6,774 bases of DNA from Candidatus Omnitrophota bacterium (GTDB taxonomy: Bacteria > Omnitrophota > Koll11 > Aquiviventales > Aquiviventaceae). The stretch spans positions 1-6,774 of the forward strand of contig JACPXS010000100.1 of assembly GCA_016196415.1 (NCBI GenBank). The letters run 5' to 3'. A program made the translations under genes and the position numbers. Positions within the stretch are counted from its first letter, which is position 1. Every line of letters starts with the position of its first letter. This document shows, one piece after another, positions 2,369 through 6,774 of the stretch. The notes below the pieces were generated by a model. That model searched no databases and was not told where the DNA came from. It saw only the letters and a list, made by a program, of their open reading frames with translations.

Positions 2369-2467
2369 CGTCAGGGGATCCGCCGCTGAGGGCGGGGTCT
2401 TGAGCGGTGTGGAGGGCAGGTGGGTCCTAAAACGGCAGTCAGCGAACGCGGTCACAGGCGGCCCGGA

Positions 2468-3754
2468 ATGAGCCCCTCAGTCTCGTATGAACAGCTCAAG
2501 CGAAAGCTGAAGCTCCGCCTGGCCAACGTGTTGCCGGATGACGGCCGGGCAGGGCAGAACCTCCATCCGGATCGGAACGCCGTCCTGATCCAGGCGCGCA
2601 GCGCGTTACGCGTGTTGCTGGATGATGGCCGCGCACTCCCCGCGTTGAGCCCAACGGAGCAAGAGCAGCTCATTACGGAAGTCCTTGAAGAGATCGTCGG
2701 GCTCGGCCTGCTTGAGCCGTTGCTTGCGGATCCTGAAATCAGCGAGATCATGATCAACGGCCCATCCGAGGTGTTCGTTGAGCGCCGCGGGCGCCTGGAG
2801 CGCATCGAAGTACAGTTCACCGGTACGGATCACCTCATGACGGTCATCGAGCGCATGCTGGGCAGCGTGAACCTGACCGTGAGCGAATCCACCCCGCTGT
2901 GCGACGCCAGCCTTCCGGACGGCTCCCGCATCAACGTCATCATTCCTCCCCTCGCGCTCAACGGCCCGGTTGTGACCATCCGGCGGAAGCTGCGTGAGTG
3001 GACGATGGGGGAGTATACCGCCTTGGGGGTGCTGAGCCAGCAGGCCGCGGAATTTCTCGAGAGCTGCGTCAAGGCCAAGGTCAATTTGGTCATTTCCGGC
3101 GGCACCTCAACCGGGAAGACGACGCTCGTGGGCATCCTGGCCAGCGTGATTCCTCCCGAGCATCGAATCATCACGATCGAGAACGTGTCGGAGCTTGAGC
3201 TGACGGGGCGAAGGCACTGGATCCGGCTCGTCACCAAATTGGCCAACGTTGAGAATCGGGGCGAGATTCCGCTGCGCACCTTAGTGAAGAACGCGCTGCG
3301 CATGCGTCCGGATCGGATCATCTTAGGCGAGGCGCGGGGCGGGGAAGCCCTCGACGTCGTCCAGGCGATGCACTCCGGCCATGATGGCTTCATCACCGTC
3401 CTGCACGCCAACAATCCAAAGGCGGCGCTGGAGCGGCTGGAGACCCTCATGCTCATGAGCGGGTTGGACCTGCCTCCGTCGGCGTGCCGCATGCAGATCG
3501 CCAGCGCCGTGGACCTCGTGATTCATGTCGCGCGGTTTGCCGACGGCAGCCGTCGCGTTTCCACCATCAGCCAAGTGCTTGGCGTCTCACAGGAGGGGTT
3601 TGACATGGAGGATGTGTTCACCTTCGAGGCGGAGGGATTTTCCACTGAGGGAGCGCTCCGGGGGGCGTGCCGGTACACGGGAGCCGTGCCGAAATTCCTG
3701 GCCAAGTTCCGGCTCAACAACGTGGCGATTCCCTCATGGGTGACCACCGCATGA
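2468..3754 (+). CDS. cpaF: Tad pilus assembly ATPase CpaF/TadA
   Basis: This is a type II/IV secretion ATPase that powers Flp-pilus assembly at the inner membrane. From ATG 2468 it has 428 residues. The N-terminal domain has the family stretch GLGLLEPLLADPEISEIMI at 78-96. The RecA domain has Walker A GGTSTGKTT at 211-219 (Lys217), an Asp box TIENVSELEL (Glu238), Walker B RIILGEARGGE (Glu288) and a His box with His305 and His313 (SGHDGFITVLHANNP). NALRMRPDRI and GGEALDVVQAM are strongly CpaF-like. The C-terminus (VPKFLAKFRLNNVAIP) is the usual CpaF ending. Asn239 replaces the Asp that normally follows Glu238. Two starts are possible. GTG 2420 has a GGAGGG (2411-2416), but at only 3-base spacing, and adds 16 unconserved residues. 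ATG 2468 has a weaker AGGCGG (2456-2461) at 6-base spacing and starts directly at the YEQLKRKL helix typical of CpaF, so I prefer it. The stop overlaps the next start in an ATGA. Confidence 0.96.
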   Translation: MSPSVSYEQLKRKLKLRLANVLPDDGRAGQNLHPDRNAVLIQARSALRVLLDDGRALPALSPTEQEQLITEVLEEIVGLGLLEPLLADPEISEIMINGPSEVFVERRGRLERIEVQFTGTDHLMTVIERMLGSVNLTVSESTPLCDASLPDGSRINVIIPPLALNGPVVTIRRKLREWTMGEYTALGVLSQQAAEFLESCVKAKVNLVISGGTSTGKTTLVGILASVIPPEHRIITIENVSELELTGRRHWIRLVTKLANVENRGEIPLRTLVKNALRMRPDRIILGEARGGEALDVVQAMHSGHDGFITVLHANNPKAALERLETLMLMSGLDLPPSACRMQIASAVDLVIHVARFADGSRRVSTISQVLGVSQEGFDMEDVFTFEAEGFSTEGALRGACRYTGAVPKFLAKFRLNNVAIPSWVTTA

Positions 3755-4767
3755 GCCGCCGCTGCGTCGTCTGCGCGATCCAGGGGTGGCTTGCGCTCAG
3801 CCTCCTCGTTGCGATCGGGTGCGAGAAACTGCCGTGGGCGCCGCACGCCGCCTCCAACAAGAACCAAGGCGCCGCCGCTTCGCCCACCCCGTCGTCCCTC
3901 GTGGTGCCGAGTCAGCCATCGGTGCTCCCCAATGATCTCTTGGCGAACGTCAACGGCGTGCCGATCTCGAAGTATGATCTGGAGTTTCGTATTCAAGAGC
4001 TCAAAGGGCTCATGGCGAATTTCAACCAGCCTTGGAAATCGCTCTCAGCGCAGCAGCTCGGAGACCTCCTGGATCAGCTCATCAACAATGAGCTGATGAA
4101 CCAGGATGCGGTGGCGCGCGGGCTTGAGCGGTCCACCGAGACGCAGCGCCGCTGGGCATTTACCCGCCGCGCGTTTTTTGTCCAAGAGTGGCTGCGCTGG
4201 AATCAGCAGCGGTTCGAGGTGAATACGGCGGAGATCGAGCAGTTCTATGAGAAGAACAAGCTCGGGTTCCGCGTGCCGGAGCGGCGCCAGTTGCGGCAGC
4301 TTGTCGTGTCCTCGGAGAGTCAGGCCAAGCAAGCGCTCTCCCAGCTCTTGGCAGGCTCGATGGAGTTTGCGACCCTCGTGAAACAGATCTCCGAGGGACC
4401 GACGGCGTCGGAGGGCGGACTGCTCTCCGGGTGGGTGATGCGGGCCAACGAAAAGGCCTTCCTGTACGCCACAGAGGCCGACGCAGAGGCCGCCGGCGTC
4501 CTCAGTCTCGATCCCGCGCTGGAAGCGGCCGCATTTGCCATCGATCAGGAGAACGGTTTGAGCAACTACGTGAAGGGCTCCGATAACCGGTTTCATCTCT
4601 TCCAGATGGTGAAGCGCGAGGAAAGCCGGCAGCGTCCCCTCACGGAGGCGTGGGATCAGATCAAGAACCTCCTGACGGTCCAAGCGCTGCAGCAGACGAT
4701 GGAAGCCCTCCGCACCAAGGCGAAGATCGAGCGGTTTCCGGATCGGTTGGATGCCGTGACCCAATGA
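3751..4767 (+). CDS. Parvulin-type peptidyl-prolyl cis-trans isomerase lipoprotein in the Tad operon
   Basis: This is a predicted envelope foldase of the SurA/PrsA/EpsD kind, 338 residues long. The signal peptide is basic (MSRRC) then hydrophobic, ending LLVAIGC with Cys24 as probable lipidation site, so the protein should be membrane-anchored in the periplasm. A Pro/Ser/Ala-rich linker (25-65) follows. Next is a SurA_N-like helical domain that begins ANVNGVPISKYDLEFRIQEL. The PpiC domain covers about 172-290, with the markers EFATLVKQISEGPTASEGG, a Gly-Trp, and LEAAAFAID before RFHLFQMV (His282). The first active-site His, expected in an RxxHIL motif, is Arg182 (RQLRQLVV), and there are about 15 extra residues after the Gly-Trp. 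Isomerase activity is therefore doubtful and a chaperone role more likely. The start is fixed by the ATGA overlap with cpaF, with GGTGA 7 bases upstream. Its location suggests it helps a Tad component such as the secretin; that is inference. Confidence 0.87.
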   Translation: MSRRCVVCAIQGWLALSLLVAIGCEKLPWAPHAASNKNQGAAASPTPSSLVVPSQPSVLPNDLLANVNGVPISKYDLEFRIQELKGLMANFNQPWKSLSAQQLGDLLDQLINNELMNQDAVARGLERSTETQRRWAFTRRAFFVQEWLRWNQQRFEVNTAEIEQFYEKNKLGFRVPERRQLRQLVVSSESQAKQALSQLLAGSMEFATLVKQISEGPTASEGGLLSGWVMRANEKAFLYATEADAEAAGVLSLDPALEAAAFAIDQENGLSNYVKGSDNRFHLFQMVKREESRQRPLTEAWDQIKNLLTVQALQQTMEALRTKAKIERFPDRLDAVTQ

Positions 4768-5657
4768 TCCGGCTCACCGAGACCCTCAAGCGGCGCATGC
4801 CGATCATCTTTGCGTTGGCGATGGGGGCCTTGGCTGTCGGGATCATGAACAGCTGGGTTCAGGGGGAGCGGCGGAAGCTGGAGGCCGCGCGGCGGAAGCT
4901 GCTCGAAGACTACCGCAAGCCGATCGAGGTCGTGGTCGCGTCGAAAGACGTGAATCAGGGCGTGCCGCTGGAAGCCTCAGTCTTGGCCACCGTCGCCGTG
5001 CCGGAGAAATTCGCCCAGCCGTATGCGGCGCGCTCGCCGCGGGACGTCATCGGCTTGGTGACGATTGCGCCGCTCGCCGAAGGCGAGCAGGTCTTGCTGA
5101 ACAAAGTGCGCCGCCCCGAGGAAGTGCCGAGCGGCACCTCGCTCTCAAGCCTGACCCCGGAGGGCAAGCGGGCGGTGACCATTGGCGTGGATGCGGTGAC
5201 GGGAGTCGGAGGGTTCGTCCGTCCCGGCGACAACGTCGATGTGCTGTGGAACTTTAAACTGCCGCAGGCGGACAGCCAGAAAGAGCAGATCATCACGCTG
5301 ACGCTCTTCCAGGACATCCAGGTCTTGGCCGTGGGCGGCCAGGTGGTGGGGGGGGGCGGGCTGAAACCGGAGTCGCAACAGCAGCAACAGCGCGACTACA
5401 CCGTCACCCTCGCCTTAGATCCTCAGGAGATCTCGTTCCTCCTCTTCGCCAGGGAGCAAGGACGTATTCAGCTCAGTCTTCGTCCCCAGCATGAGGGCAA
5501 GTCGCAGGCGGCGGTCGCGCCAACGAATATCAACACGATGCTTGAGGCCAAGCTCGGGATCAAGATGACGGCGCCGCCTCAGAAACCCGCCCGCCAGGTC
5601 GAGGTGTTCAAGGGGCTCCAACGAGACGTCGTGCTCCTCCCCGAGGAGGATAAATGA
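4764..5657 (+). CDS. cpaB: Flp pilus assembly protein CpaB/RcpC
   Basis: This is a periplasmic Tad component that works with the secretin in the outer-membrane channel complex. It has 297 residues. One N-terminal membrane segment (about 13-32, IIFALAMGALAVGIM) is followed by a charged, probably coiled-coil stretch (QGERRKLEAARRKLLEDYRK). A SAF domain spans about 53-115 (IEVVVASKDVNQGVPLEASVL through APLAEGEQVLLNKV). The RcpC/CpaB domain follows, with the hallmark KRAVTIGVDAVTGVGGFVRP and GDNVDVLW. A glycine-rich loop (GGQVVGGGG) and a glutamine run (SQQQQQ) lie before the last beta segments, and a charged tail EEDK ends it. The length is normal for the family. The start is the ATG of an ATGA overlapping the foldase stop; it has no strong Shine-Dalgarno of its own, so translation probably depends on coupling. 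The in-frame open region upstream of 4764 belongs to the foldase gene in another frame. Confidence 0.94.
   Translation: MIRLTETLKRRMPIIFALAMGALAVGIMNSWVQGERRKLEAARRKLLEDYRKPIEVVVASKDVNQGVPLEASVLATVAVPEKFAQPYAARSPRDVIGLVTIAPLAEGEQVLLNKVRRPEEVPSGTSLSSLTPEGKRAVTIGVDAVTGVGGFVRPGDNVDVLWNFKLPQADSQKEQIITLTLFQDIQVLAVGGQVVGGGGLKPESQQQQQRDYTVTLALDPQEISFLLFAREQGRIQLSLRPQHEGKSQAAVAPTNINTMLEAKLGIKMTAPPQKPARQVEVFKGLQRDVVLLPEEDK
5644..5649 (+). promoter_or_regulatory. Ribosome binding site that fixes the secretin start
   Basis: AGGAGG lies at 5644-5649, inside the last codons of cpaB, 4 bases before ATG 5654. That ATG overlaps the cpaB stop as ATGA. This pairing supports 5654 as the true or ancestral start of the secretin gene and argues against later in-frame ATGs such as 5798. 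Confidence 0.7.
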
Positions 5658-6774
5658 GGATGACGTCTAGCAGGCTGCGGAAAAACTCCCGCAGCGCTCA
5701 AGGTTCGAGGTTCAAGGCTCGAGGCAAGAGCACGACGCTCGACGGTGAAACGGTTTTCCCCTCGAGCCTTCAGCCTAGAGCCTCCAGCCAAAACATCATG
5801 TGGGGCCTGCCCGGTTCGACCCCCGCGCAAGAACGTCATTCGACGCAAGCCCGCCGCTCGACCGAACCCCTCGTCGTCGCGGATCTCACGACCGGTTCGG
5901 GAACGGAAGTCGGCAAATCCGCCGTGTCCGCTGAGCATCAGCCCGCATCCTCACCAGCCCATGGAGAGGCGGCTCCCATTCCCCCGGCAATTTTCATGGA
6001 ACCCGGCGCCATCCAGAGCCTCGCTGTCGATGGGCTCACGCGAGTGGCGATCGGGGATCCCAAGGTGGTGGATGTCACCGTCGTGTCGGCGAGTGAGCTC
6101 CTCCTCCAGGCGAAAGCCGTCGGGGTGACAACCCTCCTGCTCTGGGATCGCCGGGGCCAACTGACATCAGCCGTGGAGGTGATCGATCGCACCCCGGAAG
6201 CCGTGACGGCGCAATTGCGCCAGGTGCTCAACGAACTGAATTTTTCTGACATCCAGGTGACGCGCGAAGGCGATAAGATCTTCCTCGGCGGCCAGGTGCC
6301 CACCAAGGAAGACCTGGATCGGCTGAAGGAGATCCTCGCCGCGTACGAGGGGATGGTGACGAACCTCGTGACCACCCCTCCGGTGCCTCCAGCGCCTTTT
6401 GTGGCTCCGCAGTCGGTCAAGCTGACCGTCCAGCTCGTTGAAATGACCCGGGATGGGACGGAAAAACTCGGCGTGGATTGGGCGGATAAGCTGACGTTTA
6501 CCGAGACGACCTTTGGAGTGCTCGGGCCCTCCGGCGTGTCGCAAGTCGCAAGGCTTGGAGAAGCGTTCCGGCTTGGGGCGCTCAGCCGAACCGGCTTGAA
6601 CCCGGTGCTGAACATGCTGGTATCGAAAGGGAAAGCGCGCATTTTAGCCGAGCCGAAGCTCGTGGCGGCAAGCGGGAAGGAAGCGTCGACCTTCCTGGGC
6701 GTGGAAGTGCCGATCATCACCGCCACGTCGTTTGGCACGACCACCTCATCCGTCAGCGCGAGCATCGAGTTCCG
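5654..6774 (+). CDS. cpaC: Tad/Flp pilus outer-membrane secretin CpaC/RcpA, 5' part (3' end outside window)
   Basis: The frame stays open from ATG 5654 to the window end (373 residues visible). Residues 113-178 form a pilus-formation N-terminal domain (MEPGAIQSLAVDGLTRVAIGDP, then LLLQAKAVGVTTLLLWD). About 179-240 is BON-like (TAQLRQVLNELNFSDIQV, IFLGGQVPTKEDLDRLKEI). A Pro-rich hinge leads to the secretin domain from 254, with VKLTVQLVEMTRDGTEKLGV, then ARILAEPKLVAASGKEASTF and GVEVPII. These are standard CpaC/RcpA features. The first 112 residues are abnormal. CpaC normally has a short signal peptide and then this domain, but here the region is polar, Ser/Arg/Pro-rich, and has no hydrophobic stretch. 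Residues 16-46 are encoded by a heptamer repeat array. No signal peptide is visible in any forward frame between 5658 and 5990. As written, the protein lacks an export signal, so the gene may be disrupted, may use an unseen route, or may carry a recent insertion. The domain call is secure; functionality is not. Confidence 0.9.
   Translation, partial: MRMTSSRLRKNSRSAQGSRFKARGKSTTLDGETVFPSSLQPRASSQNIMWGLPGSTPAQERHSTQARRSTEPLVVADLTTGSGTEVGKSAVSAEHQPASSPAHGEAAPIPPAIFMEPGAIQSLAVDGLTRVAIGDPKVVDVTVVSASELLLQAKAVGVTTLLLWDRRGQLTSAVEVIDRTPEAVTAQLRQVLNELNFSDIQVTREGDKIFLGGQVPTKEDLDRLKEILAAYEGMVTNLVTTPPVPPAPFVAPQSVKLTVQLVEMTRDGTEKLGVDWADKLTFTETTFGVLGPSGVSQVARLGEAFRLGALSRTGLNPVLNMLVSKGKARILAEPKLVAASGKEASTFLGVEVPIITATSFGTTTSSVSASIEF
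5674..5695. repeat. Short hairpin at the start of the secretin gene (possible element end)
   Basis: GCTGCGG (5674-5680) and CCGCAGC (5689-5695) form a perfect 7-bp inverted repeat around AAAAACTC. It starts 17 bases after the cpaB stop and directly precedes the heptamer arrays. The preceding CTAGCAGG and the A-rich loop look like the end of a small repetitive or MITE-like element rather than coding sequence. No target-site duplication could be identified, so the boundaries are unknown. Confidence 0.55.
5695..5789. repeat. Two opposed arrays of a 7-base repeat forming a long imperfect hairpin
   Basis: The left array reads CGCTCAA, GGTTCGA, GGTTCAA, GGCTCGA, GGCAAGA in perfect 7-base phase (5695-5729). 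The right array reads TCGAGCC, TTCAGCC, TAGAGCC, TCCAGCC (5762-5789), the reverse complement of GGCTNNA units. The arms 5702-5724 and 5760-5782 pair at 19 of 23 positions, with an uninterrupted 11-bp match next to a 35-base loop. Unit length, phase and opposed orientation identify this as a structured intergenic-type repeat, not ordinary coding sequence, yet it sits in the open frame of the secretin gene. Similar GGCTCGA-type arrays are familiar to me from intergenic DNA of some environmental bacteria; that is memory, not a search result. Confidence 0.8.

Follow-up and report, generated by a model that had tools for sequence, protein, structure and literature searches.

Probable MITE-like repeat DNA at the signal-peptide position of a Tad secretin gene from a Candidatus Omnitrophota bacterium

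The window analysed here, a stretch of 6,774 nucleotides from a Candidatus Omnitrophota bacterium, carries part of a Tad pilus operon, as seen by its open reading frames and Pfam-backed gene calls. Its first part holds two consecutive ATPase genes of the T2SSE family (PilT-like; 2-517 and 504-1682), overlapping at 504-517 and followed by a tRNA-Glu gene (1779-1854), and when the whole window was compared with Rfam at gathering scores, a tRNA alone was matched. Further on lie the gene of a TadA-type ATPase (ORF 2420-3754, Pfam) and, between tadA and cpaB, a gene for a PPIC/SurA-like prolyl isomerase (3751-4767, Pfam). The cpaB/rcpC gene (4764-5657, forward strand, Pfam RcpC and SAF) overlaps the start of a Tad secretin gene of the CpaC/RcpA type (5654-6774, forward strand), assigned by Pfam and by homologues, whose 3' end is outside the window. 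The ribosome-binding site GAGGAGG (5643-5649) and the ATGA overlap (5654-5657) between the cpaB stop and the secretin start, both on the forward strand, are intact, and the coupling pointed out in the first-pass annotation is kept. No intrinsic terminator or sigma-70 promoter was found between 5500 and 6000.

Regarding the secretin itself, the T2SS-T3SS_pil_N model lies above the Pfam cut-off, and the Secretin model reaches 25.3 bits, below its cut-off of 27.5, in a protein truncated by the contig end. Among its homologues, at least five are named Candidatus Omnitrophica in a source (P0053, P0055, P0076, P0085 and P0104). Most of the homologues listed in a precomputed table (P0002-P0099) also possess a TonB domain (PF03544), and a secretin-TonB fusion of this sort is, to our knowledge, unusual.

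Just past the secretin start, a foreign stretch of 44 codons in the secretin frame (5666-5797, forward strand) replaces about 12 codons of the signal peptide, as delimited by eye against the homologue P0002 and by codon usage. At its left is CTAG (5667-5670), a tetranucleotide of the YTAR kind that flanks related MITEs, followed on the forward strand by an 18-base terminal inverted repeat (CAGGCTGCGGAAAAACTC, 5671-5688) like those of DUF772-type IS and MITE elements, recognized by pattern match and by related sites in other genomes and contigs. This terminus and the bases just inside it form a 7-bp hairpin (5674-5695), detected by inverted-repeat search and RNA folding, with the arms GCTGCGG (5674-5680) and CCGCAGC (5689-5695) and a loop of 8 nt. 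Then, also on the forward strand, come a left heptamer arm of the GGYTCRA type (5696-5725), a separating stretch (5726-5759) delimited by repeat search and RNA folding, and a right heptamer arm (5760-5789) that is inverted relative to the left one.

Tandem Repeats Finder assigned to each arm a period of 7 and 4.3 degenerate copies, that is, at least four tandem 7-base units, with matches of 78% on the left and 73% on the right. The best lag-7 score of the window, 18/23, is located at 5696, and 60 dinucleotide shuffles do not exceed 17, the value of the right arm, which one of the 60 equalled. The arms, 35 nt apart, are mutually inverted over 29 nt with 79% complementarity (23/29), a score of 23 for 29-nt inverted arms that the 60 shuffles do not attain (at most 22). 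Thus, the hairpin, the heptamers and the imperfect stem between the arms, all described in the first-pass annotation, were recovered at their places, the best heptamer score and the stem exceeding all shuffles. The RNA minimum free energy of 5660-5800 is -63.4 kcal/mol (z -5.8), with none of 200 shuffles as good. Upstream, a further inverted repeat (5624-5668) places the secretin ribosome-binding site within a hairpin (5620-5700: -37.7 kcal/mol, z -5.1); the two outermost pairs of this hairpin involve CTAG bases, and it would suit translational coupling to cpaB. A REP element was also considered as the origin of the 7-bp hairpin; REP elements are described as short palindromes bearing a GTAG or CGTC tag (PMC3733652), and it was rejected, as the hairpin is preceded by CTAG CAG, with neither tag.

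The position of the insert becomes visible by comparison with P0002, the best homologue among the matches listed, with 80% identity over 87% of the query. P0002 begins with MLANMTRRIARMALCGLLVWGLPGSTTAQE, and the window reads MRMT, 44 codons and then MWGLPGSTPAQE. As read by eye, P0002 has MTRRIARMALCGLLVWGLPGST in place of the window's MT, 44 codons and MWGLPGST, with MT and WGLPGST common to both, 12 residues missing from the window and one V replaced by M. The junctions of the insert were set by this protein comparison, in which the common MT could be due to chance, and the similarity resumes at 5801, with WGLPGST. MAFFT puts the N-terminal residues elsewhere, yet resumes at the same WGLPGST. 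Further into the linker, at 5921-5965, the window has 15 extra in-frame residues (AVSAEHQPASSPAHG) that are absent from P0002, by eye.

Among the matches listed (120 of 123 homologues), the alignment never covers more than 87% of the query, and in the two that reach this value it begins at residue 49 or later. Moreover, no protein of 55-175 residues, the range searched, contains three 5-residue words of residues 1-49. Conserved N-terminal residues in close homologues had been named in advance as what would speak against an insertion; P0002 lacks the residues, none of them was found conserved, and a conserved coding N-terminus was rejected, as neither homologues nor 5-residue words support it. 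More distant searches added little: those of viral contigs with CpaB and the secretin gave no relative, a scan of genome contigs gave one distant secretin (L001, 29% identity), 297 sampled genomes from the phylum of the L001 genome held distant secretins only (up to 46%, across part of the protein), and a plasmid search returned six weak, short matches.

The codon usage of the insert is non-coding-like, as in out-of-frame DNA, with a score of -0.33 bits per codon, which no other forward frame of the insert exceeds, on a scale derived from the neighbouring genes themselves; 144 in-frame windows of those genes score at least 0.01, and 288 out-of-frame windows at most -0.20. The secretin frame has no stop across the insert, as had been noted before, but this says little because another forward frame of the insert likewise contains none, and the lack of stops was rejected as a sign of selection. 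The translated length of about 31 residues did not hold, since the hairpin belongs to the foreign stretch, which therefore covers about 44 codons. Likewise, the insertion near the first codons is supported by the absence of these residues from P0002 and by the codon usage, but it takes a changed form, in which the hairpin overlaps the terminal repeat and codons of the signal peptide are missing as well.

A hydrophobic segment, defined as a mean Kyte-Doolittle (KD) value of at least 1.5 over 11 residues, occurs upstream of the conserved domain in 77 of the 91 scorable homologues and is absent, as annotated, in the other 14 (of 119 homologues, 19 with fewer than 480 residues or lacking the search motif were excluded, and 9 had too little upstream sequence). 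The window secretin reaches a maximum KD of 1.03, located after the insert, and the insert itself has no hydrophobic segment. The database protein of this contig (P0001) starts at the ATG at 5798, and no signal peptide is present from there either. Hence the disruption of the gene, one of the outcomes that the first-pass annotation had considered, is probable from the missing segment and the codon usage.

The hairpin overlaps a terminal inverted repeat of the DUF772-type IS/MITE kind that follows the CTAG at 5667-5670, and the element may be of IS5 or IS1182 type. IS5-group elements duplicate YTAR. The 18-base terminus (CAGGYTGCGGAAAAACTC, 5671-5688) is the sole site of the window within three mismatches in either orientation. 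When a right terminus was sought in 5641-5900, the best match had 9 mismatches in 18 bases, and no duplicated flank was seen at the right-hand junction; a further CTAG (5775-5778) is part of a right-arm heptamer and adjoins no terminus. The element of about 127 bp, with no gene or transposase inside, fits the size of short MITEs (about 100-250 bp).

A terminus of the same kind was found paired, in inverted orientation, in 14 distinct elements, accepting up to six mismatches per end and eight in total at distances of 60-400 bp. Three are in viral contigs (L042, L043 and L045) and 11 in three genomes reached via an unrelated secretin match: G173 (L091, L094), G175 (L093, L106) and G199 (L092, L111, L114, L117, L119, L121, L122). 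This count omits a coincidental pair within the IS of L104, repeated occurrences of an element already counted and unpartnered sites. The cores of the paired elements measure 109-235 bp, 10 of the 14 being between 109 and 140 bp. Identical 4-bp flanks, all of them YTAR, border nine elements, and the flanks do not match in five (L045, L094, L111, L117 and L122); as seven of the 14 were found with patterns containing TAG at one end, this proportion is biased, and identical flanks occur in four of the seven found without TAG in the pattern. The interior of the 11 bacterial relatives is, by eye, another palindromic repeat of the CCCGCGAAAGCGGG type, and that of the window is the heptamer array.

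Autonomous partners with similar ends were found in other genomes only. In L002, a terminus with two mismatches, the one end seen, lies immediately outside the start of a DUF772 transposase (Pfam E 2.5e-15). In G173, a 1,382-bp stretch with non-matching flanks, between termini with three and two mismatches, holds a relative of the L002 transposase (64% over 85 residues). Searching five genomes, chosen because earlier patterns matched them, for the pattern CAGGHTGYKGAAAAAC yielded 22 sites, compared with 0 for the reversed control, and a 21-base form of the terminus was present within one mismatch in 4 of the 297 sampled genomes of the phylum mentioned above. In G001, a 19-base form with up to three mismatches gave nine sites against five for the control, so most of those sites are attributable to chance. 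The viral contigs contained five matches to the 18-base pattern, two of them (L044, and L041 at the edge of the examined stretch) without a partner end, and no exact match to a 22-base variant prefixed by CTAG; in four further viral loci (L095-L098), the terminus is unpaired.

Heptamer arrays of the GGYTCRA type occur in 44 viral stretches with 37 distinct left flanks. An opposite heptamer lies within 250 nt of 11 of the 44 arrays, compared to 79 of 682 control windows, so that inverted pairing, a trait of some but not all elements of this sort, is mildly enriched. None of the 44 arrays has the terminus within 250 nt (the fewest mismatches being 5), and at 47 terminus sites with up to two mismatches, some from overlapping loci, no tandem pair of GGYTCRA heptamers lies within 220 nt. 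Consequently, the composite of terminus plus heptamers is unique within the viral arrays and terminus sites searched, which is compatible with one element as well as with two adjacent events.

Within the secretins, N-termini were back-translated to ask which could be encoded by heptamers. A heptamer-compatible segment starting in residues 1-90 was present in 6 of 120 proteins (119 homologues plus the window), namely the window, P0015, P0022, P0054, P0080 and P0081, and the same criterion was satisfied internally in one of 120 (P0043, proline-rich), despite a nearly fivefold excess of internal segments (52,183 against 10,800). The criterion, applied to 10-residue segments, demanded a period-7 score of at least 20/23 and a fraction better by 0.10 than those of periods 5, 6 and 8, and it was chosen with these control lags after a first scan had failed to discriminate, in which not only 7 of 121 N-termini but also 18 proteins at residues 151-245 scored 20 or more; we attribute the latter scores to proline-rich linkers. 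A lag-7 test on plain amino acids was noisy. P0015 and P0022 look closely related by eye, and therefore the six proteins are not all independent.

In P0081, residues 49-76 (TLLLAPCSLRLAPCSLLLTAYCLLL) could, on back-translation, be encoded by a nearly perfect heptamer array, with 20-23/23 per segment, and these segments span the hydrophobic segment LLLTAYCLLLV. At that place, the sequence of its relative P0100 is, by eye, hydrophobic but not repetitive, and a query with the P0081 N-terminus matched P0081 alone, giving no sign that such signal peptides have spread to other proteins. P0080 has two heptamer-compatible stretches ahead of its hydrophobic segment (residues 9-34), whose inverted arrangement, as in the window, appears possible by eye at the peptide level. 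The recurrence of heptamer arrays in orthologous secretins is thus an unproven hint from peptide sequences, and heptamer-compatible N-termini would equally result if start codons had been assigned too far upstream, within intergenic repeats.

Taken together, we consider it rather probable that MITE-like DNA, having lost its right end along with codons of the signal peptide, has left an in-frame secretin that is probably not exported. Such an element, mobilized in trans by a DUF772-type transposase, would have entered at the CTAG just past the secretin start, its interior filled by the inverted heptamer array. The left terminal repeat (5671-5688) would have been preserved, and the right one would have been lost together with about 36 bases encoding the core of the signal peptide. 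With the frame and the ATGA coupling retained, the gene would still be translatable but deprived of its export signal, and the most likely effect would be a secretin that is not exported and a Tad pilus that is not assembled in this strain. Against this reading, the frame is open to the contig end, 325 codons past the insert, as would be that of a functional gene or of one struck only recently; the composite was not seen again among the 47 terminus sites and 44 viral arrays and has neither right terminus nor right flank duplicate; the flanks differ in five of the 14 paired relatives and around the 1,382-bp stretch; and 14 of the 91 homologues also lack the hydrophobic segment.

The lack of other composites bears as well on a history of two separate events, in which a decayed MITE end (5667-5695) came to lie beside an independent inverted heptamer array (5696-5789), one able to arise or spread by itself, at a tolerant site. 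The array without terminus in all 44 viral records, the terminus without tandem GGYTCRA at all 47 sites and the heptamer-compatible N-termini of the five orthologous secretins named above are in line with it; however, the MITE end directly adjoins the array (5695/5696), and together they measure about 127 bp, a length common among the paired elements, so we regard two events as conceivable but doubtful. The retained coupling and frame and the strong RNA structure could also point to a functional role, where the array tunes synthesis from the coupled start, given the suggestion that heptamer repeats directly preceding start codons regulate translation (MacGregor 2015, PMC4679880), or where the extension is itself a working export signal, as might be thought from P0081, whose heptamer-compatible sequence coincides with a hydrophobic segment. 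The translated insert of the window, however, has no hydrophobic segment and a non-coding-like codon usage, and no conservation of it was found among the homologues listed or by 5-residue words in proteins of 55-175 residues, which makes such a role very unlikely; neither was anything found in support of the translational or recombinational switch proposed initially, for which a right terminus is also missing. Repeats are classical points of mis-joining in assembly. The window protein P0001 is represented by one member sequence on one contig of 6,774 bases, and the repeat might have led the metagenome assembler to join two strain variants. However, the sequences on either side of the insert correspond, in frame and in the correct order, to a single gene of P0002, and the operon upstream shows no break, so that an artefact seems hardly credible.

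Under the preferred reading of a MITE-like insertion, mobile-type repeat DNA probably disabled the export of the secretin. This DNA occupies the position of the signal peptide and leaves the frame and the operon's start coupling unbroken, and as a result a gene caller sees a complete open reading frame although its product is probably not exportable. A broader and rather unlikely possibility is that, time and again in this bacterial lineage, heptamer arrays arrive or expand at the beginning of the Tad secretin gene and supply material for its signal peptide, where they might form the hydrophobic core (P0081) or the beginning (P0015, P0022), or destroy the signal peptide, as in the window. If so, the secretin would be a site at which non-coding repeats give rise to export signals or null alleles, and if the recurrence in orthologues holds at the DNA level, these genes would offer a tractable set for how non-coding heptamer arrays become signal peptides.

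Compared to known systems, the case of the window is a variant of kinds already documented, namely heptamer arrays and MITE-protein fusions, and the literature search found no paper joining Omnitrophota, Tad pili, repeat elements and the signal peptide. It resembles IS-derived MITEs with a DUF772 partner and YTAR flanks in its terminal repeat, the CTAG at its end, its size, its folded interior and its lack of a transposase, and differs from them in having an inverted heptamer array inside and neither a right terminus nor a duplicated flank. In the BrickBuilt MITE, the minisatellite unit is 23 nt long. This element of Porphyromonas gingivalis also has a tandem repeat inside, between ends like those of the IS5 family, but the repeat is a minisatellite, with no heptamers or inverted arms mentioned in the part of the report that describes it (PMC4596501).

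Regarding the repeats, heptameric sequences are reported to be over-represented in many bacterial genomes (PMC4692102). The heptanucleotide elements of Geobacter metallireducens are described as four or five tandem units, as in the window, located between and within genes, with one class displayed as folded-back sequences; their heptamers, GGGACCG and MTYCTGA, are different, and their description in that source mentions no transposon terminus (PMC2700814). Likewise, the TAACTGA repeats of Beggiatoaceae form heptamer arrays near start codons and, within open reading frames, mainly at the protein periphery, but they consist of a uniform heptamer in direct repeats, with one indirect case, and no terminal repeat is mentioned in the relevant part of that report (PMC4679880). 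As for fusions, MITEs are described as joining proteins in frame, and a 168-bp repeat of Yersinia, likewise a small mobile sequence that touches a signal peptide, forms part of it (PMC2229807); whereas the Yersinia repeat helps to build the signal peptide, the insert of the window replaces one with a polar sequence.
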